This document shows, one piece after another, positions 4,677 through 16,334 of a DNA stretch of 23,855 nt (its first letter is position 1; each line of letters starts with the position of its first letter). This DNA comes from a virus. Under the pieces are notes generated by a model. It did not search any database. It had not been told where the DNA came from and saw only the letters and a list, made by a program, of their open reading frames with translations. Location of the stretch: the IMG/VR virus record IMGVR_UViG_3300039050_000148, positions 8,083-31,937 of that record; one strand, 5' to 3'. Both the position numbers and the translations under genes were made by a program.

Positions 4677-5034
4677 TTATAATCTCCGTTTATAATTCTT
4701 TGCGTAATTTATAATAAATATTTTAATTTCCAAAACATTTATTTATTTATTTATAATTATAAGAAATAGTTTGTTTATAATTATAATGTTTATTATTTTA
4801 TCATTCATATTATTATAATAGGTTTGGATGAAATTGCTTTTGGCTATTATAATTTATAACGAACTACCAAAAGGAATCACAAAGTTCAGGGTGAGGACTA
4901 ATTATAATACACCTGTGATGAAAAAAATATTATAAGCTAAATAATCCCACAATGTGAGGTTTATAATGGTAGTCATTCCTAGATCAAAAGTCTAGGAATA
5001 AGGACTACTATACCCAAATATAAGGTTTATAATA
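4677..5034. promoter_or_regulatory. Repeat-rich regulatory spacer upstream of the HTH gene
   Basis: 358 bp without a convincing gene. It contains eleven exact TTATAAT heptamers (starting at 4677, 4690, 4709, 4751, 4775, 4781, 4813, 4847, 4902, 4961, 5027), far above what even this AT content would give. It also has a duplicated GTGAGG...TTATAAT motif (4891 and 4954), inverted repeats ATCACA/TGTGAT with inner GGTG/CACC (4876-4919), and the long hairpin at 4969-5008. TTATAAT includes the -10 consensus TATAAT. Promoter cluster, operator array or origin are all possible; I cannot choose. Confidence 0.45.
4969..5008. repeat. Long hairpin-forming inverted repeat
   Basis: ATTCCTAGA and TCTAGGAAT form a perfect 9-bp stem around TCAAAAG (4976-5000), and outside it GTAGTC pairs with GACTAC across a 3-nt bulge. 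No T-run follows on either strand, so this is more likely an operator or a processed RNA hairpin than a terminator. Confidence 0.5.
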
Positions 5035-6693: not shown

Positions 6694-7224
6694 TTAAATA
6701 TATCTATTAATTATAAAGTTATTATATTTAGATTTTATTTTACTTATTTTATCATTTAATAAAGATTTTTTTTCATTTATTTTATTAATCTTATTAATTG
6801 CATTTACAACATTATTATAATTATGATATTGCAATTTATTAAAAGGAAATAATTTTATATTTTCTCTATCATATGAACAAATAAACTCTCCTTTTTTCCA
6901 ATATTGTTTAGGCATAAATAAAGCAATATCTTTTTTAATATATGTATGTGAAGAAAATTTTTCATTTTCATTATCTGCATAATGAATATCAAATTTAAGA
7001 TAGGTTGTAGATACACAGGTTGAAATATAAGCCCTTATATTTGAAGGTTTATTTTTATTTAAAATATCATTAAATTTATCTTTATATACTTTAAATAATT
7101 CATTATCTTTATTTAATTTTATGCCTTTTTCAATTTCATTAATTAATTTAGGCACAACATTATTAATATATTTATTTAATATATTTGTATTTTCTGTATG
7201 TTTTTTTATTCTTTTTGTATTCAT
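6694..7224 (-). CDS. Hypothetical protein (176 aa), first gene after the ribozyme
   Basis: Largest gene of the small-gene array. The Lys/Asn-rich product has helical ends and a more globular middle (NIRAYISTCVSTTYLKFDIHYADNE, about 62-86, and a WKKGEF segment near 108). No domain recognised. The ATG at 7224 has AAGGAAGG upstream. Its leader begins at the predicted hammerhead cleavage point (7256), so self-cleavage would give this gene a defined 32-nt 5' leader. Confidence 0.55.
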   Translation of the reverse strand: MNTKRIKKHTENTNILNKYINNVVPKLINEIEKGIKLNKDNELFKVYKDKFNDILNKNKPSNIRAYISTCVSTTYLKFDIHYADNENEKFSSHTYIKKDIALFMPKQYWKKGEFICSYDRENIKLFPFNKLQYHNYNNVVNAINKINKINEKKSLLNDKISKIKSKYNNFIINRYI

Positions 7225-7250
7225 TTTTATTTACCTTCCTTATTTAGTTT

Positions 7251-7301
7251 GTCTATGACGGCTTAATTAAAAGCCGTTTCGCGTTCGCTCATCAGATAGA
7301 C
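7251..7301 (-). ncRNA. Hammerhead ribozyme, type I topology
   Basis: Read 5' to 3' on the minus strand: stem I strand GUCUAU (7301-7296), core CUGAUGA (7295-7289), stem II GCG-AA-CGC (7288-7281; or 2 bp with a GAAC loop), core GAAA (7280-7277), stem III CGGCUU/AAGCCG around UUAAUU (7276-7259), cleavage triplet GUC with U7258 and C7257, then stem I strand AUAGAC (7256-7251). All conserved core bases are present and stems I and III pair perfectly; A7277 and U7258 give the expected A15.1-U16.1 pair. Predicted cleavage is between 7257 and 7256. It lies between the 45- and 176-residue genes on the transcribed strand. Stem II is very short and no loop-loop contact is obvious, so the rate in cells is unknown. 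Confidence 0.85.
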
Positions 7302-7329
7302 TATTTTATTTTATCCTTTATTTAGTTAA

Positions 7330-7467
7330 TTAATTGTTTAGGTAATGCAAAGCAAAGTCTCTATATAATGAATTATTTTTATCTAATTCTAAAATAGTAT
7401 CTATTAATTCTTTTTTAGTTAATTGATTTAATTCATTTTTAATCTGTTCTTTTTTATTTATTTTCAT
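7330..7467 (-). CDS. Hypothetical protein (45 aa)
   Basis: ATG at 7467 with TAAGGAAATAAATAAA upstream, the leader type of this array. Charged helical product (Lys/Glu/Asn/Leu) with no Cys or membrane span. It is the last gene before the ribozyme, so after self-cleavage its mRNA would end in the stem III hairpin. No family recognised. Confidence 0.5.
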   Translation of the reverse strand: MKINKKEQIKNELNQLTKKELIDTILELDKNNSLYRDFALHYLNN

Positions 7468-7488
7468 TTTATTTATTTCCTTATTTAG

Positions 7489-7692
7489 TTAATTACTGTA
7501 TGTTATTATTCTTGTCCCCTCTTTATCTAGTTCATTTATTTGATCAGACAAAGTCTCTATTATATCAAAGTGTAATGACGAGAACAAATCTAAGCCATTA
7601 TCACTTTTTAAGTCTTCAATGTTATTTTTTTGTATATACTGCAATAACTCTACTGCTTTTCTTTTTGCTATTTTTAATTTATTTAATTTCAT
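7489..7692 (-). CDS. Hypothetical protein, first gene of the early minus-strand array (67 aa)
   Basis: ATG at 7692 with TAGGAGATAAA upstream. Helical protein of 67 residues with a basic N-terminus (KLNKLKIAKRKAVELL) and an acidic C-terminal half. It is the promoter-proximal gene of the early transcript; the two TTTACA/TGTAAA palindromes lie 35-82 bp upstream of the ATG. Position suggests an early host-takeover or regulatory role, but no motif confirms it. Confidence 0.55.
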   Translation of the reverse strand: MKLNKLKIAKRKAVELLQYIQKNNIEDLKSDNGLDLFSSLHFDIIETLSDQINELDKEGTRIITYSN

Positions 7693-9577: not shown

Positions 9578-10050
9578 CTTTTCCTTATCCGTTTGTTAAG
9601 TAATCTAATGAATTTTTTTTCAAAATCCTCGTAAATTTTTGTAAGACCTGCTTTAGTTCCTCTTAATGCAACAACCCTTCTTCCTTTCGCACTATCCTCA
9701 AAATGTGGTATAAATTCTCTTTGTGGAACTTCTAAACCTTTGCTGTGTTTGTACCATATATAACCACCTGGCTCTCTATGAGCTTTTGCATAATCTACGC
9801 CAGTAATACCTTGTGAAGTACCTTTTAAACTATAAGCTAGTTTACCTGTATCAAATAAAGGTCTTGCTTTTTTCCCTCTTGGGTTATTGTCTGATAATTT
9901 AGGTTTTACTTTACCATCAGTAATGTAATCACGAGCTAATTTTGCAGTTTTATCAGCTAAATCAGCATTAATATATTTATCTAAATTTTGTTCGTTTAAT
10001 ATTTTTAAGGCTTTACCAAAATCTATATTATACTTGACTTCTATCTTCAT
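9574..10050 (-). CDS. Virion morphogenesis / HK97 gp10-like tail-completion protein
   Basis: 158 residues with the signature of the Mu gpG / P2 gpS / gp10-like family: PLFDTGKLAYSL (64-75), then VDYAKAHREPGG (85-96) and VPQREFIPHF (108-117), ending in a basic tail (RLLNKRIRKR). These proteins act at the head-tail connection or tail completion. The start at 10050 overlaps the 3' end of the portal gene by 23 nt. Being next to the portal gene, and not with the neck and tail genes on the plus strand, is unusual. Confidence 0.65.
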   Translation of the reverse strand: MKIEVKYNIDFGKALKILNEQNLDKYINADLADKTAKLARDYITDGKVKPKLSDNNPRGKKARPLFDTGKLAYSLKGTSQGITGVDYAKAHREPGGYIWYKHSKGLEVPQREFIPHFEDSAKGRRVVALRGTKAGLTKIYEDFEKKFIRLLNKRIRKR

Positions 10051-11344
10051 CTTGAGACTCCACTTCTATTGGTTCTTCTTTTACAGGCTCCATTTGTGCT
10101 TTATTCTCTTTTAATTTAGCATTTGCCTCATCTAAAGTCAAGTCTTTATTATATTCTACCATTAATTCGGCTTTATTTACAAGTCCTAGATTTAATCTGT
10201 GATTATCAAGAGCTATTTGATCTTGTACCGTCATTGGATACTCAGGCTCATTAAAATCAAGTTTTAAGCCTTGTGGTAAGCCTATATTGAAAGTTCTTGC
10301 TATATTTCTCTCAATTTGGTAAATTTCGTGCTCGTATTGTGTCCATAAAGCCAAATCATCTTGATAATCTTCAAAACTTTCCAAATCTTTAATCTTTAGA
10401 GCTATTCCACTTGGTGTTTCACCACCATCTTGTGCAAATTGTACAGATAAGTGGTTATTTTGTGCTACAAGCTCCATTTGGAACTTAACATTCTCAATAA
10501 CCTTCTCAATATCACCTGATGGCGACTTAATATCATAATTTGCGTTATCTGGAAGCTCTAATATAACATCTGAACCAAATCTTTGATTATTTCCTAAATC
10601 TGCTCCTGAAACAACAGGTTGTCCAAACATTTGAAACCTTAAACCAAGTTGCATCTCTGTCATTGTAATATTTATATGCTCATTGGCGTTACAAATATCA
10701 TTTGCACCCTCAACATAAAAAGAATCACTTTGATGTTCTCTATGAGTGAAAACAAATGGTAAGGCACCATATCCGTGTTCTCCTTCTTCTATAACCTTAC
10801 CTGATTCATCAAAAATAATGTAACTTTCTGCATTCCAATGTATATATTGACAAGAATCAGAGTTAGAAGCATCTTCCGTGTAGTGCATTAAAGGATAAGA
10901 GATTGCTACTGGTTTAAAAGGATCAGAACCAAAGAAAGGATGAAAGTAATAAATAGGTTGATAATCAAAGTAAGGCATTTCACCATCAACATACATTACT
11001 CTTACAGCTATTGTTCCAACTAAACGTGTCATTCTTTCAATATGCTTCATTTTAGCATCTTTTAATACAGAGAGATTATCATATTTTTTACTAACATTCC
11101 TATCAGCACCTACTGTGTAGATACGTGACATTTTATTTATAAATTTCTTAGTTATGTTCGCTTCATACGGAGGAACTTCTCTAAAAGCATCTAGATCAAA
11201 TTTCTTTTCTATATAATACTTAGTATTACTACCATTGTAGTAATCTAATAGTTTATGTACATAACTTTCTCGTTTTCTATGGTTTTCTATCTTCAGGACA
11301 TTTAAACTATCCTTTATAGCTTGTTCTCCGTACTTATATATCAT
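10028..11344 (-). CDS. Portal protein
   Basis: 438 residues, a typical portal length. Features: an N-terminal YNGSNTKYY segment, PYEANITKKFINKMSRIYTVGADR (59-82), GTIAVRVMYVDGEMPYFDYQPIYYFHP in the wing, and the helical SGIALKIKDLESFEDYQDDLALWTQYEHEIYQIERNIARTFN region near 312-353, as in SPP1 gp6-type portals. The C-terminus is acidic. It forms the dodecameric DNA entry channel. The start overlaps the stop of TerL as ATGA (11341-11344), so terminase and portal are coupled. Confidence 0.85.
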   Translation of the reverse strand: MIYKYGEQAIKDSLNVLKIENHRKRESYVHKLLDYYNGSNTKYYIEKKFDLDAFREVPPYEANITKKFINKMSRIYTVGADRNVSKKYDNLSVLKDAKMKHIERMTRLVGTIAVRVMYVDGEMPYFDYQPIYYFHPFFGSDPFKPVAISYPLMHYTEDASNSDSCQYIHWNAESYIIFDESGKVIEEGEHGYGALPFVFTHREHQSDSFYVEGANDICNANEHINITMTEMQLGLRFQMFGQPVVSGADLGNNQRFGSDVILELPDNANYDIKSPSGDIEKVIENVKFQMELVAQNNHLSVQFAQDGGETPSGIALKIKDLESFEDYQDDLALWTQYEHEIYQIERNIARTFNIGLPQGLKLDFNEPEYPMTVQDQIALDNHRLNLGLVNKAELMVEYNKDLTLDEANAKLKENKAQMEPVKEEPIEVESQDEDRSQV

Positions 11345-12651
11345 CTGTTCCTCACTTTTATCTCTCTGTTTTTAATTGGAAAATGGTTAATAAAAAAATA
11401 TCTTAATTGGTCGCAGCCGTGGTCGTGGTAACCGTCTTTTAGTGGCTCTTGTTTTAATGGTTTATTGTCTTGAGCTTCAGGATACCTGTAACTTTCTAAA
11501 TCTTCTGCCATACCTATACAATTATTATTTAAATGAAGGTATCTTTCTCCGTTAGCGTTCTCTATGTAACTTCTAACGTGATTAACACCTGCTGTGATAC
11601 TTCTTGAGGCTTTATCTGTTATTGTTCTAACATCTATACCTTTTTTTCTAAAAATCTCTATATCTCCTACACCTGATTGCCCTTGTGCTTGTAATCCTGC
11701 TGGATCACCATAATACCTTGATACTATATATGGTTTACCTTTAATCATATCTGCAAGTTCATCTGTTTTTATATTTGTTTGATGTATTATCTCATCAATC
11801 ATATTAATATGCCATTCACCATTTACTCTGTGCGTCTGATACCATCCCACAGAAGGCATCCTGTACCCAAAATCAATACTGCAAAAAGTAGGAAGATGGG
11901 GGTTATAAGGATAATAGCCAACATCAATATTTCTGTCAAAAGGATAAACCCTACCTTCAAACGATGTAAATTGTGCTCCATACTCTTGGTCAAAAAGCTC
12001 TTTAGACATATTACGTTTTCTCTCAACGAGAAATTTGTCATCTGCACCTTCAGGAAAAGCGAAGTTATTATCCCAAGATGGTGCTTGATGAGATTCCCAA
12101 AGTTCATCACTTTTTCCAAGCAGGTATAAATCATATAACCAATTAAACCCTTCTGGCGTTGAAATGAAAATCGCCTTACCTTTTCTATCAGATAGAGTGG
12201 GAGATAAATACATATCCCAAATCCTGGGTCTTACTTTGGCTGCCTCATCTATAATCAACAAGTCTAATCCTTCACCAACAAGTGAATCAGGATTATCTGC
12301 CGATTTAGCTTCTACAACTGTATCCCATTTGAATTTGATATATCTTTCTTTCTCTGAAGCCTTGATAATATCGTTTTGATGTCCTTTGACCATCCTTTCC
12401 CAGATTTCTCTAAACATCAAGTCGGCTTTATCATACGAAAGACCAACCAACCAAATACGTTTGTTCGGCTGGGAGGCGTAGAATGTCGCTTCCATAGCCG
12501 ATGCAGTAGTCTTCCCGAATCGCCTCCCACAAATCATTACAAAAAACCTTGCAGATTCTTTGGTAGGAAAATGCAATTTACGCTGACCTTCGTGGGGTTC
12601 ATAACCTAAATAATCAAACCATTTCTTTTTATAATTATTTAAATGTTGCAT
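11341..12651 (-). CDS. terL: Terminase large subunit
   Basis: 436 residues. Walker A GRRFGKTT (42-49) and Walker B LDLLIIDEA (129-137) define the packaging ATPase; the RNase-H-like nuclease shows SIDFG near 253-257, YYGDPAG near 314-320, and HDHGCDQLRY near 410-420 with the metal-binding Asp residues. It pumps DNA into the prohead and cuts concatemers. It is the first gene of the minus-strand packaging operon and lies across a short divergent promoter region from the scaffold gene. Nothing appears missing. Confidence 0.95.
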   Translation of the reverse strand: MQHLNNYKKKWFDYLGYEPHEGQRKLHFPTKESARFFVMICGRRFGKTTASAMEATFYASQPNKRIWLVGLSYDKADLMFREIWERMVKGHQNDIIKASEKERYIKFKWDTVVEAKSADNPDSLVGEGLDLLIIDEAAKVRPRIWDMYLSPTLSDRKGKAIFISTPEGFNWLYDLYLLGKSDELWESHQAPSWDNNFAFPEGADDKFLVERKRNMSKELFDQEYGAQFTSFEGRVYPFDRNIDVGYYPYNPHLPTFCSIDFGYRMPSVGWYQTHRVNGEWHINMIDEIIHQTNIKTDELADMIKGKPYIVSRYYGDPAGLQAQGQSGVGDIEIFRKKGIDVRTITDKASRSITAGVNHVRSYIENANGERYLHLNNNCIGMAEDLESYRYPEAQDNKPLKQEPLKDGYHDHGCDQLRYFFINHFPIKNREIKVRNR

Positions 12652-12739
12652 ATTTCCACCATTTTAATTTAAGTTACAATGTATGACAAACGCAAGATAT
12701 TGTGTTTTTAATTTAAAATATACAACATAGGAGGGCAGT
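12652..12739. promoter_or_regulatory. Divergent promoter region between terL and scaffold
   Basis: 88 bp between two divergent operons, so promoters for both are expected here. AT-rich with TTTAATTTAA repeated at 12662-12671 and 12708-12717; a plus-strand ATGACA (12683-12688) to TTTAAT spacing near 17-20 bp is a weak match. A strong ribosome-binding site, GGAGGGCAG, precedes the ATG at 12740. Confidence 0.4.
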
Positions 12740-13291
12740 ATGTCCGAAGAAAATCAAGTATCAAACGAAACAGTAGTGGAACAGGGTACGGAGAATGTTA
12801 CTCAAGAATCAGCTCAAAATGAGTACATAGCAGAAAGCAAGAAGTATAGAAAAAGAGCTCAAGACGCTGAAAATAAGTTAGCAAATCTACAAAAACAATT
12901 AGAAACTCAACAAAATCAAAAACTTAAAGAGAAAGAGGAATATAAAACTTTAGCTGAAAAATATGAAGCTCAAGTTAATGAACTCAATCCTTATAAAGAT
13001 AAATATGAAGGTTTAGTTGAACAAAGACGTAACGTTTTATTAGAAAGGCTTCCTGAAGATAAGCGTGAAACTTTTAAAAATAAAGATTTAGATGTTTTAG
13101 AATTTATGGTATCTGAATTAAAAACCAAAACTCAAGAACCTTCAGCAAGAAATCTTGTAGGCACTAAAAATACAGAATTTGGTGGTTACGCTTCTTTTGC
13201 TGAGTGGGCAGAAAAAGATCCTATTGGATACGCATCAAATAATACTAGCAGTAATGCTAAAGGTATTAAGATAGGTTACGGTGGCGAATAA
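12740..13291 (+). CDS. Capsid scaffolding protein (coiled coil)
   Basis: 183 residues. An acidic Gln/Glu-rich N-terminus is followed by a long coiled coil (about 30-95) and a more compact C-terminal part ending in a Gly-rich tail. This composition, directly upstream of the major capsid gene, is typical of phage scaffolding proteins that guide prohead assembly. No protease motif. The start ATG follows GGAGGG; the last 11 nt overlap the next gene. Confidence 0.7.
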   Translation: MSEENQVSNETVVEQGTENVTQESAQNEYIAESKKYRKRAQDAENKLANLQKQLETQQNQKLKEKEEYKTLAEKYEAQVNELNPYKDKYEGLVEQRRNVLLERLPEDKRETFKNKDLDVLEFMVSELKTKTQEPSARNLVGTKNTEFGGYASFAEWAEKDPIGYASNNTSSNAKGIKIGYGGE

Positions 13292-13532
13292 AGACCCACA
13301 TAAACCTTTTGGAGTTGATTTAGACCCTAATAATGATTTAACTCATACACCTCAACCTGATGGTGACGTTAAAGTTACTCATAAGGGAGAAAAAATAAGG
13401 TATATGGATTATATTGATATTATGGAAGAAAGAGCAACTCGTAAAGGTGAGGGTAAATCTCCTGTAAAATCTCAAATGGGATTGTTTGGTGGTTTTGGTA
13501 AAGGTACTTTAAAAAAAGCATACGAACATTAA
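13281..13532 (+). CDS. Hypothetical head-region protein (83 aa), GTG start
   Basis: GTG start at 13281 inside the end of the scaffold gene. Soluble, basic, with a GLFGGFGKGTLKKAY C-terminal segment. No motif recognised. Between scaffold and capsid, so a minor capsid or assembly role is plausible but unproven. The start is chosen because the frame has no earlier better start and overlaps give coupling. Confidence 0.5.
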   Translation: MANKDPHKPFGVDLDPNNDLTHTPQPDGDVKVTHKGEKIRYMDYIDIMEERATRKGEGKSPVKSQMGLFGGFGKGTLKKAYEH

Positions 13533-13584
13533 TTCCTACTTGAAGGCGAAAGCAGTTGATAGAGGATAAAATTAGGAGGCTTAA

Positions 13585-14466
13585 ATGGCTTTAACAAATA
13601 CAAGCACAGCAGCTGGTGGCTTAGGAAGAACGATAGGCGACGCTGTAATTGCTTTTAATCACGTAAATGTAATGTACCCACTTGTGACTGTACAACAAGC
13701 AGCTCAAGGGTCAAATCACGTTCAATTCTCAGATTGGACAAAATTAACATCAAGTAATGTAACTGAAGCTACACAGGCTACTACTACAACAGCTGTAGCT
13801 ATTACAACAGCAGCTAGAACTGCAACAATATCAGAACACGTTATTGCTTCTACAGTAAGTGACTTAGTTCTTATGGGTTCAGGCGATGATGTTGAAGGTC
13901 AAGCAGGTCCTGCTTTAGGTAACGCAGTTGCTGCTAAACTTGATGATGACTTAGTAGAATTAGGTAAAGGATTCTCTCAAACAGAATGTGGTGCTGGTAC
14001 TGAACTAGCTTTATCTCATATATTTGGTTCTATGAGACAATTAAGATCAGCAGGTGCTCCAATGCCTTATAACTTAGTTCTTTCACCTAAACAGGTGTGG
14101 GGTGCTAAAGGTTTAATTAGCTTATTACACGATGATGCTGTAACAGGTTCAAATGCTAAACCAATGTCTATGATGGGCAATAAAGGTGAAGAAGTATTTT
14201 CTACAGGTTATGTTGGTTCTATTGCAGGATTCAATGTTTATTGGTCTGACCAAATAGATGAGAATGTTAGTTCTGGTGGCGATGCTGCTGGTTTTGCTTT
14301 CTCAAAAGGTGGTGTTGGTCTTGGAGTTGGTGCTGATGGCTTATTTAGAATCGCAGCAGAAAGAGACGAAATGCTAAGAGCAACTAACTATGTAGCTACA
14401 GGATTCTGGGGCGAAATTGAGATAAAAGACACTTATGGTGTTTATATCTTATCTGACGTTTCATAG
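13585..14466 (+). CDS. Major capsid protein
   Basis: 293 residues, ribosome-binding site AGGAGG. Ala/Thr-rich N-terminus, then blocks typical of HK97-fold / N4 gp56-type capsid proteins: the EHVIASTVSDLVLMGSGDDVEGQ spine-helix area, AKLDDDLVELGKG, LVLSPKQVW (about 164-172) and GFNVYWSDQI (212-221), and a C-terminal 'ATGFWGEIEIKDTYGVYIL' strand. It forms the icosahedral shell. It follows scaffold and is followed by a strong hairpin and a small basic gene, the classical arrangement for a highly expressed capsid gene. Confidence 0.85.
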   Translation: MALTNTSTAAGGLGRTIGDAVIAFNHVNVMYPLVTVQQAAQGSNHVQFSDWTKLTSSNVTEATQATTTTAVAITTAARTATISEHVIASTVSDLVLMGSGDDVEGQAGPALGNAVAAKLDDDLVELGKGFSQTECGAGTELALSHIFGSMRQLRSAGAPMPYNLVLSPKQVWGAKGLISLLHDDAVTGSNAKPMSMMGNKGEEVFSTGYVGSIAGFNVYWSDQIDENVSSGGDAAGFAFSKGGVGLGVGADGLFRIAAERDEMLRATNYVATGFWGEIEIKDTYGVYILSDVS

Positions 14467-14484
14467 TTCTTAACGAAAAAAAAT

Positions 14485-14508
14485 AAGGGGGTGGGAAACT
14501 ACCCCCTT
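14485..14508. terminator. Strong hairpin behind the capsid gene
   Basis: AAGGGGGT (14485-14492) pairs perfectly with ACCCCCTT (14501-14508) around GGGAAACT. On the plus strand only TTTA follows, so it may act as a partial terminator or mRNA 3' stabiliser for the capsid gene; on the minus strand an eight-T run (TTATTTTTTTT) follows, so it is a better terminator for transcription from the opposite direction. Confidence 0.55.
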
Positions 14509-14523
14509 TAATATGGAGATAAT

Positions 14524-14688
14524 ATGAAAAGATTTTTTAAAAAAGGTAATGGAACAATTATTGAAGCAAATGCTAATCACGATATAAAATCTTTAGAAGA
14601 TAGATTTGAAGAATGTGATGAAAATGGTGGTGAAATTAAAAAAGTAGTTAAAAAAGTAGCTAAAAAAGCTAAAAAGGAAGGTAAATAA
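14524..14688 (+). CDS. Small basic protein (54 aa)
   Basis: ATG at 14524, ribosome-binding site TGGAGATA just after the capsid hairpin. The C-terminus is a Lys/Ala/Val repeat (KKVVKKVAKKAKKEGK) resembling histone-H1-like tails, while the middle is acidic. It may be a minor head protein that contacts DNA; no family recognised. Its stop overlaps the next ATG as TAATG. Confidence 0.55.
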   Translation: MKRFFKKGNGTIIEANANHDIKSLEDRFEECDENGGEIKKVVKKVAKKAKKEGK

Positions 14689-14891
14689 TGCCGATAGTAG
14701 CTAAAAGTTTTTTACATAATGACGACAAAATAGTTGGTACTTCAGGTGATGCAGATGGTAATTTAGCAGAAGATGTACAAGATTGGATTACTTCACAAGA
14801 CGCTGAATTAGTGGCTACTACAAATTTAAATGTTACTTGCACACAATTTGGTAGCAAAATATTTACATTAGTAGTATTAGATAGCGATTAA
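14688..14891 (+). CDS. Hypothetical acidic protein (67 aa)
   Basis: Soluble acidic protein (many Asp) with a C-terminal beta pair (FGSKIFTLVVLDSD). TAATG overlaps at both ends tie it to its neighbours. Located in the head gene cluster; no motif recognised, so head decoration or assembly roles are only possibilities. Confidence 0.5.
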   Translation: MPIVAKSFLHNDDKIVGTSGDADGNLAEDVQDWITSQDAELVATTNLNVTCTQFGSKIFTLVVLDSD

Positions 14892-15013
14892 TGTCTGAAA
14901 CTAGAAATGGTAAAGGCGATTCATACAGGATTCCTATTACTGATAAGAAGTATAAAGAAAATTATGATAAAATTTTCAAGAAAGACAGAGATGAGTTTAA
15001 TAGAGAGTATTAA
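14891..15013 (+). CDS. Small charged protein (40 aa)
   Basis: ATG at 14891 overlaps the previous stop as TAATG; ends at 15013, 23 nt inside the lysozyme gene. Highly charged, with IPITDKKYKENYDKIFKKD. Support is the coupled start and good length of the overlap-free part; no family recognised. A longer lysozyme frame starting at 14907 overlaps it, but the extra residues there do not look like lysozyme. Confidence 0.45.
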   Translation: MSETRNGKGDSYRIPITDKKYKENYDKIFKKDRDEFNREY

Positions 15014-15404
15014 AAAACACGAAGGTTATGTAGGCGTAGTCTATAAAGATTCTTTAGGAATTGATACTATAGGCTACGGCTTCGCCATTAAAGATTTAGA
15101 ATTAGATGCAGATATATGCGACATCATTCTTGAACGTAAACTTAAAGCATTACACGATATAATCAAGATTAAGTTTAAATGGTATGGTTATATGCCACAA
15201 GAGATTAAAGATGTTGTTATGGAGATGTGTTATCAATTAGGTGTAGGTGGGTTTTCTAAGTTTAAGAAAACAATAGCCTATTTACAAAACAAGCAATTTC
15301 ACGATGCTTCAGTAGAAATGCTTGATAGCCTTTGGGCGAAACAAACACCTAATAGAGCAAAAGAATTAAGTAATAGAGTTAAAGAGGTAGAAGTTGGACG
15401 TTGA
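14991..15404 (+). CDS. Lysozyme, T4-type endolysin (GH24)
   Basis: 137 residues from ATG 14991 (MSLIESIKKHEGYVGVVYKD). The catalytic triad is Glu11, Asp20 and Thr26 (KKHEG, YKD, TIGYG), exactly the numbering of T4 lysozyme; the GH24 helix with VVMEMCYQLG and the SLWAKQTPNRAKEL end are also present. It cuts peptidoglycan for host lysis. No signal sequence, so it needs a holin; the 52-residue membrane peptide directly downstream is the candidate. An in-frame start at 14907 would add 28 residues without family support. Confidence 0.9.
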   Translation: MSLIESIKKHEGYVGVVYKDSLGIDTIGYGFAIKDLELDADICDIILERKLKALHDIIKIKFKWYGYMPQEIKDVVMEMCYQLGVGGFSKFKKTIAYLQNKQFHDASVEMLDSLWAKQTPNRAKELSNRVKEVEVGR

Positions 15405-15552
15405 AAGTTTAAAGGCTGGTGGACTTGGGTTAAGTGGCTATATAGTACAATGGATAGATTTTTTTAGTCCAGTAATTGAATTAGGCTATATGGTTGTTCT
15501 TATTGCTTACTTTTTATATCAAATTAAAAAAATAAAAAGCGAGATTAAATAG
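15394..15552 (+). CDS. Holin-like membrane peptide (52 aa), TTG start
   Basis: TTG at 15394 with AGAGG upstream, overlapping the lysozyme end by 11 nt. The product begins MDVESLKAGGLGLSGYIVQ and has a hydrophobic span (about 31-42) followed by a basic tail KKIKSEIK. Small proteins of this type next to endolysins in marine phages are likely holins. Its TAG shares a base with the GTG start of the phosphoesterase (15552). Too short and non-ATG, so easily missed. Confidence 0.6.
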   Translation: MDVESLKAGGLGLSGYIVQWIDFFSPVIELGYMVVLIAYFLYQIKKIKSEIK

Positions 15553-16334
15553 TGCCGACAGGTGTAGTTAAGAGAGTAATAGTAACACCTGACAAACATT
15601 TTCCTTTACACGACCAACCTGCTATAAACGTATTAAAAAAGACTATTGAAATAGTCAAACCTGACGCTTATGTTGATTTAGGTGATGTAGGCGAATGGTC
15701 GGCTTTTAGTGCTTGGAAATATAAACGTAAGAAAGCACCACCTCTTGAGTTCTTAATAGAAGATTTTGAAAAAGACGTAAAAGATGTCAATGCTGGTATG
15801 GATCAGATTGACGAGAGTTTAGACAAAGTGAATTGTGAGGAACGCTACATCACAGAAGGTAACCACGATAACTGGTTAAATATGGCTGTTGAGAAGTATC
15901 CTTACATACCTCAATATAAGTTTAAAAATGCAGTAGATTTAAAAGGTAGAGGTTACAAATATATTCCCTTTGGAAAACACTTAAAATTAGGTAAATTATA
16001 CCTATATCACGGACATCAATATGGTGGTCAATACCATACAAGTAACCATTTACGTAAACTTGGTTGCAATGTTATGTATGGACATTGGCACGATTTACAA
16101 CAAATGTCTGCTACACATATGGACGGACCAAAGTCTGCGTGGAGTATCGGATGTTTAAAGGATATGGCAGCAGAAGCTAATGATTGGCTTGACCATAGAA
16201 GGATTAATTGGGCACACGCTTTTGCTATTGTAGATTTTTTTAGAGGAGGACTGTTTACAGTCCATATTATACAAATAATAAACGGCAAAACTTCATTATG
16301 GGGTGAGATTATAGATGGGAACGGAAAATGTTAG
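15552..16334 (+). CDS. Calcineurin-like metallophosphoesterase
   Basis: 260 residues from a GTG start. All metal-site motifs are present: D14-x-H16 (PDKHFPLHD), G44-D45 (LGDVGEW), G103-N104-H105-D106 (GNHDN), H153-G-H155, and G177-H178-W-H180. So it should be an active two-metal phosphoesterase (protein, nucleotide or nucleic-acid phosphoester). Phages often carry such enzymes; the substrate cannot be told. It sits inside the late operon between lysis and fibre-like genes. Start follows the holin-like stop with a 1-nt overlap. Confidence 0.85.
   Translation: MPTGVVKRVIVTPDKHFPLHDQPAINVLKKTIEIVKPDAYVDLGDVGEWSAFSAWKYKRKKAPPLEFLIEDFEKDVKDVNAGMDQIDESLDKVNCEERYITEGNHDNWLNMAVEKYPYIPQYKFKNAVDLKGRGYKYIPFGKHLKLGKLYLYHGHQYGGQYHTSNHLRKLGCNVMYGHWHDLQQMSATHMDGPKSAWSIGCLKDMAAEANDWLDHRRINWAHAFAIVDFFRGGLFTVHIIQIINGKTSLWGEIIDGNGKC

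Follow-up and report, generated by a model that had tools for sequence, protein, structure and literature searches.

The minus strand of the window, by which we mean the whole analysed stretch of 23,855 nucleotides from a 31,937-base virus record, carries at positions 7301-7251 what is very likely, judged from sequence and covariance modelling, a type I hammerhead ribozyme that is functional and acts in cis; it lies in the early phage operon and would split the early polycistronic mRNA. The motif, the conservation of its structure, its position and its class can be read directly from the data. Along the minus strand it runs GUCUAU CUGAUGA GCGAACGC GAA ACGGCUUUUAAUUAAGCCGU C AUAGAC (segment lengths total 51), with three helices around the core, arranged as in type I, and stem I open. 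Stem I consists of GUCUAU (DNA GTCTAT, 7296-7301) and AUAGAC (DNA ATAGAC, 7251-7256), the latter being the predicted 5' end of the downstream product, and is bordered by an A directly before (7302) and an A directly after (7250), as is typical of the class described below. The conserved core CUGANGA ... GAA is represented by CUGAUGA (DNA CTGATGA, 7289-7295) and GAA (7278-7280), followed by A15.1 at 7277. Stem III is a hairpin, ACGGCTTTTAATTAAGCCGT (7258-7277), supported by sequence and fold. The triplet GUC at 7259-7257 is of the NUH type, and from hammerhead chemistry cleavage is predicted after its C17, between 7257 and 7256. The assignment of the whole motif (7251-7301) draws on the sequence, on an independent covariance model (R2), and on an identical 51-mer in another locus, L124.

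The preliminary description of this DNA had already placed a type I hammerhead in the early operon, an identification now supported by the independent covariance model and by relatives with compensated stems. Its coordinates for the motif are all right on the minus-strand reading, every conserved core base is present in the sequence (CUGAUGA, GAA with A15.1, and the GUC triplet), and the 6-bp stems I and III are as perfect as claimed, stem III extending to 7 bp once the A15.1-U16.1 pair is added. Re-reading gave the same result for stem II, described as having only 2-3 bp and no clear loop partner. Stem-loop II, GCGAACGC (7281-7288), can be drawn with 2 bp and a GAAC loop or with 3 bp and AA, and lacks the 4 bp and UNANN loop of the class from which R2 was built, while the 6-bp stem I flanked by A on both sides conforms to it. 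Relatives show UNANN loops and A/A beside stem I; for the GAAC loop, no partner was found in the window motif. With the short stem II and no UNANN loop, the presumed tertiary contact between stem I and loop II is probably absent in the window hammerhead, and cleavage at cellular Mg2+ may therefore be slow.

A match of this kind could be a product of chance in an AT-rich genome, and hammerhead-like patterns do arise randomly in large databases (PMC3088659). The core pattern in its loose form is found a single time in the window, against 0.05 expected occurrences. When the whole window was shuffled 400 times with dinucleotides preserved, a relaxed structural scan (stem I of at least 4, stem II of at least 2 and stem III of at least 4 bp) gave 5 matches, and none had stems comparable to those of the window, with at least 6 bp in both stem I and stem III. 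The shuffle test and the independent covariance model refute the chance reading, against which the hammerheads of relatives also argue, and we consider its probability negligible. Energy minimisation folds a 59-mer into precisely the hammerhead (-14.8 kcal/mol, z=-2.6), and the structure persists in the MFE fold over 301 nt, where the centroid retains only 4 stem I pairs.

The preliminary description had named an Rfam search as a check and the lack of a covariance-model match among its grounds for refutation; for Rfam at the gathering score, that lack is formally the case. No ribozyme match is obtained anywhere in the window, but the same is true for 11 related loci and for four cultured-phage loci with clear hammerheads. 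Since every relative and cultured phage tried is missed in this way, the result for the window reflects the Rfam thresholds and not the sequence. With the threshold off, the sole Rfam match in the region is the RAGATH-1-hammerhead (RF03152; 31.3 bits, E=0.0012, gathering 56.3). The hammerhead core is alike, but we rejected membership in this family, because the score is below gathering and two of the four pairs of the family's upstream 4-bp stem are broken in the window. Hammerhead_1 (RF00163, gathering 34 bits) has the same type I topology; its gathering score is not reached, and the window copy is unlisted even at E<=10. Two copies of the related locus L050 obtain 31.4 and 30.9 bits with this model, below gathering, and sub-threshold Hammerhead_1 or RAGATH-1 scores are seen in some other related or cultured-phage loci. 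The best Rfam match of the pelagiphage copies is again RF03152.

For model R2, 29 hammerheads were taken from other phages, none of them from the lineage of the window or with its short stem II. On the window it returns 7301-7251 with 41.2 bits (E=2.7e-10) as the only strong match, the next reaching 12.1 bits. In the R2 alignment, pair counts show 99.8% pairing and 125 double changes, and they fall sharply on sliding. Its rows were preselected for paired stems, and the case for covariation therefore rests on the core-only matches and the orthologous loci discussed below.

Used as a probe, the 176-aa protein encoded downstream of the motif has no homologue in IMG/VR, and relatives were therefore gathered with TerL, which led to 80 related IMG/VR loci. 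Hammerheads in them were located by structural scan, by model R1 and by whole-record searches; a first generic pattern, allowing any 8-nt stem II, had given mostly chance matches, with full stems at the match itself in 7 of 80 loci. Three TerL relatives (L019, L023 and L039) carry hammerheads with the stem I of the window, GUCUAU/AUAGAC, and two more (L078 and L073) also carry hammerheads. The 38-kb record L050 contains seven, in which stem I GUUCAA is paired with UUGAAC or UUGGAC. All seven lie within 5.3 kb (10048-15363), and the six that were read share the 5' GUUCAA and differ in stems II and III. L156, which entered the set through a hammerhead pattern, has stem I GUCUAU too, and its Sak-like annealing protein is 93% identical to that of the window. 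The relatives with hammerheads have 1-7 copies each, in which stems II and III vary yet remain paired; compensatory variation, which the preliminary description had suggested looking for, thus exists, and it extends to a replaced stem I at the pelagiphage locus.

The motif of L124, on the same contig as the TerL relative L012, is identical to that of the window at 51 of 51 positions, and the genes before and after it are both different from those of the window. The GCGAANGC form with stem I GUCUAU is confined to the window, L124 and L156, and in L156 the short stem II is combined with another stem III, again fully paired. The closest TerL relative, L003, carries no hammerhead. Among the 25 TerL relatives whose early side is covered by 1.5 kb or more, 8 have the element, which is thus optional. 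In the search for a host, a scan of GTDB with the GUCUAU hammerhead pattern or with TerL gave no match.

The class to which these elements belong is large and sharply defined, and it is missed by the Rfam thresholds. The class pattern CTGANGAGGNTTNANTANCCGAAA, a single stem-II pattern that leaves stems I and III unconstrained, was found in at least 120 IMG/VR stretches, and its reversed string in none. Among the testable core-only matches listed, 76 of 80 have a stem I of at least 5 and a stem III of at least 4 bp, as against 47 of 16,000 (0.3%) with shuffled flanks. Stem I has 6 bp in 132 of 137 non-redundant copies, and in the 121 copies that combine it with a 13-nt stem II, A precedes and follows stem I in 99%. 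The norm for stem II is 4 bp with a UNANN loop. In 52 copies outside the pattern, A is found before stem I in 49 and after it in 47; 39 of them have a 13-nt stem II, with the loop U (39/39) N A (33/39) N N.

In the 137 copies, the first base of stem I lies at a median of -1 nt relative to the upstream stop codon, just inside it, and the median distance from the cleavage site to the next start codon is 26 nt; a start codon at 20-60 nt is seen for 79% of copies and for 28% of random positions. Arrays comprise up to 6-7 copies, and stem I hexamers are identical in 46 of 81 pairs within a contig, against 415 of 9235 pairs between contigs, a comparison that is descriptive, the contigs not being a random sample. 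In L258 (6271-11133, minus strand), a repeated tail of the form AAAAGTSAGSYGCAVACTATAACAGGC comes after each of six hammerheads, and a variant at L051 11433-11502 and L053 15610-15679 carries an additional U after CUGAUGA, ahead of stem II (CUGAUGAU-GGAUUUAAAAUCC).

A blastn search with two class members led to phages of cultured Pelagibacter and Flavobacterium. Full hammerheads with the cleavage triplet GUA lie upstream of MarR, integrase and RNA polymerase genes in the pelagiphages HTVC019P (L300 2948-3008), HTVC131P (L301 2658-2720), Jormungand EXVC012P (L302 38219-38279), HTVC022P (L304 2297-2359) and HTVC304P (L305 2431-2493). Stem I is GCAAAA/UUUUGC in HTVC019P and Jormungand and GUUGUA/UACAAC in HTVC131P, HTVC022P and HTVC304P; on these sequences, it is replaced yet fully paired at one orthologous locus. 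The Flavobacterium phage elemoB (MT497068) has a copy among small genes (L303 9214-9271, minus strand), with one internal mismatch in stem III. None of these hammerheads is annotated in the phage records. In the pelagiphages HTVC026P and HTVC112P and in phage DSL-LC06, whose capsid protein is distantly related, model R1 finds no hammerhead.

In the window, the motif lies between two minus-strand genes. Upstream is a 45-aa ORF (MKINKKEQ...HYLNN; 7330-7467) with no assigned function, and between it and the motif a leader with an RBS-like AAGGA (7302-7329) is followed by no gene. The same leader is present in L156, where it continues into ATGG and an ORF. In the window it runs into the ribozyme instead, as if gene exchange, by loss or replacement, had left it orphaned. 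A 9-aa ORF that could start at the core AUG (AUGAGCGAACGC...) was set aside, the nearest RBS-like AAGGA being too far upstream. On the other side, a leader with the RBS AAGGAAGG (7225-7250) precedes the downstream 176-aa gene (6694-7224), whose product has just a weak PHROG match, of unknown function. Its ATG at 7224 begins 32 nt after the cleavage site, which confirms the distance that the preliminary description had given between the new 5' end and this gene. Two nearby genes are preceded by near-identical RBS leaders, AACTAAATAAGGAA, at 7230-7249 and 7471-7490 (minus strand); comparable leaders are found again in relatives and could serve as homology for cassette exchange. Promoter and terminator scans were uninformative in the AT-rich DNA of the window.

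From this arrangement we infer in-cell cleavage, the chemistry of the resulting ends, and any effect on mRNA stability or translation. After transcription, the RNA would fold as a hammerhead and cut itself between 7257 and 7256. The upstream product would be the mRNA of the small genes on that side, with a 3' end formed by the stem III hairpin and a 2',3'-cyclic phosphate. The downstream product would be the mRNA of the 176-aa gene and later genes, with a 5'-hydroxyl and starting AUAGAC, and its 32-nt leader, which contains the RBS, would be short and mostly unstructured. The element would then be one of many interchangeable intergenic 'punctuation' ribozymes between the small accessory genes of such phages.

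Several observations weigh against a functional ribozyme in the window: the element is optional in relatives, L003 has no copy, stem II has few pairs, and the Rfam scores stay below gathering. The copy could be a relic of an active class, its 2-bp stem II and missing loop contact making it too weak for cleavage in vivo. In favour of decay, stem II is without the 4 bp and UNANN of most copies, and the GCGAANGC form with this stem I has a very narrow distribution (window, L124, L156). A decaying motif would hardly be expected from the complete identity with L124 despite different flanks, or from the retention in L156 of a short stem II next to a different, fully paired stem III. Moreover, a stem II of 2 bp is frequent in natural hammerheads, and activity was seen in 14 of the 18 consensus-conforming hammerheads put to the test (PMC3088659). 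On balance, we regard a relic as improbable.

Somewhat more plausible, if still doubtful, is the possibility that the motif cleaves but has been retained through cassette shuffling, marking gene boundaries, with hexamers and leaders acting as recombination homology and processing being neutral. The identical 51-mer ahead of unrelated genes in the window and L124, the orphaned leader just upstream of the motif, the sharing of stem I hexamers within loci rather than between them (46/81 and 415/9235 pairs), and the optional presence among relatives all fit such a history. Pure homology does not require the compensated divergence of stems II and III, and the narrow placement relative to stop and start codons and the retention of the core throughout also speak against this reading.

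A more general proposal, which we think rather unlikely to hold in full, is that type I hammerheads serve as a general, protein-free mRNA punctuation of marine tailed phages, masked by the ribosome at the stop codon, released in time with translation, and interchangeable through their hexamers. On this view, several boundaries between genes would each carry a hammerhead that overlaps the stop codon upstream of it. A gene's own translation would then set when the following mRNA is freed, and the shared stem I hexamers would leave the units exchangeable after recombination. Hypothetically, a terminating ribosome could delay folding where the stop codon is overlapped, as is usual in the class; the window copy sits 28 nt from the upstream stop codon.

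In phage T7, RNase III sites between early genes cut the early polycistronic mRNA and leave hairpin 3' ends. A host protein is required there and the 5' ends carry a phosphate, and the analogy to the window element is one of effect only. A closer precedent was described by Perreault et al. in 2011, who found clustered hammerheads flanking genes in prophages and phages, commonly with 2-bp stem II, proposed the same transcript-cutting role, and showed in vivo cleavage for a triple array of Agrobacterium (PMC3088659). In view of that report, the statement that such hammerheads are little described was too strong. The core, the multiple copies flanking single genes, the weak 2-bp stem II and the suggested role are shared with the elements described here, which differ in occurring in small marine phages and pelagiphages, in the stereotyped 6-bp stem I bounded by A, in the start at the upstream stop codon, and in a stem I hexamer that is often common within a genome. 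HHphage of the haloviruses HF1/HF2, for which a 5' end was mapped within 3 nt of the cleavage site (PMC3088659), likewise lies just upstream of an early-region phage gene, but it is a core variant with insertions, from an archaeal virus, and 13 nt before the start.

The class in small marine phages and pelagiphages seems to be undescribed in the searchable literature, in which no report of hammerheads in pelagiphages was found (subscription journals and preprints were outside the search). The purpose of phage self-cleaving ribozymes has been stated to be an open question (PMC6155905; PMC10085705). The window copy is tied to a class with members in phages of cultured hosts, namely HTVC019P, HTVC022P, HTVC131P, HTVC304P and Jormungand (Pelagibacter) and elemoB (Flavobacterium), in which the cleavage site can be mapped, and the question of the role is thus directly testable. 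For annotation, the small early genes of these phages may sit on separate mRNAs.

The window has two further features of note. The gap between the early operon and an HTH gene contains a strong hairpin (UAGUAGUC...CCUAGACUUUUGAUCUAGG...GACUACC; 4940-5025, minus strand), an 86-nt stretch with -23.2 kcal/mol and z=-2.6 and no Rfam match at gathering. On the plus strand, 15552-16334 encodes a metallo-phosphoesterase (phrog_221); any action of it on RNA ends is pure guesswork. A gene annotated as putative phosphodiesterase is found in HTVC026P and HTVC112P.
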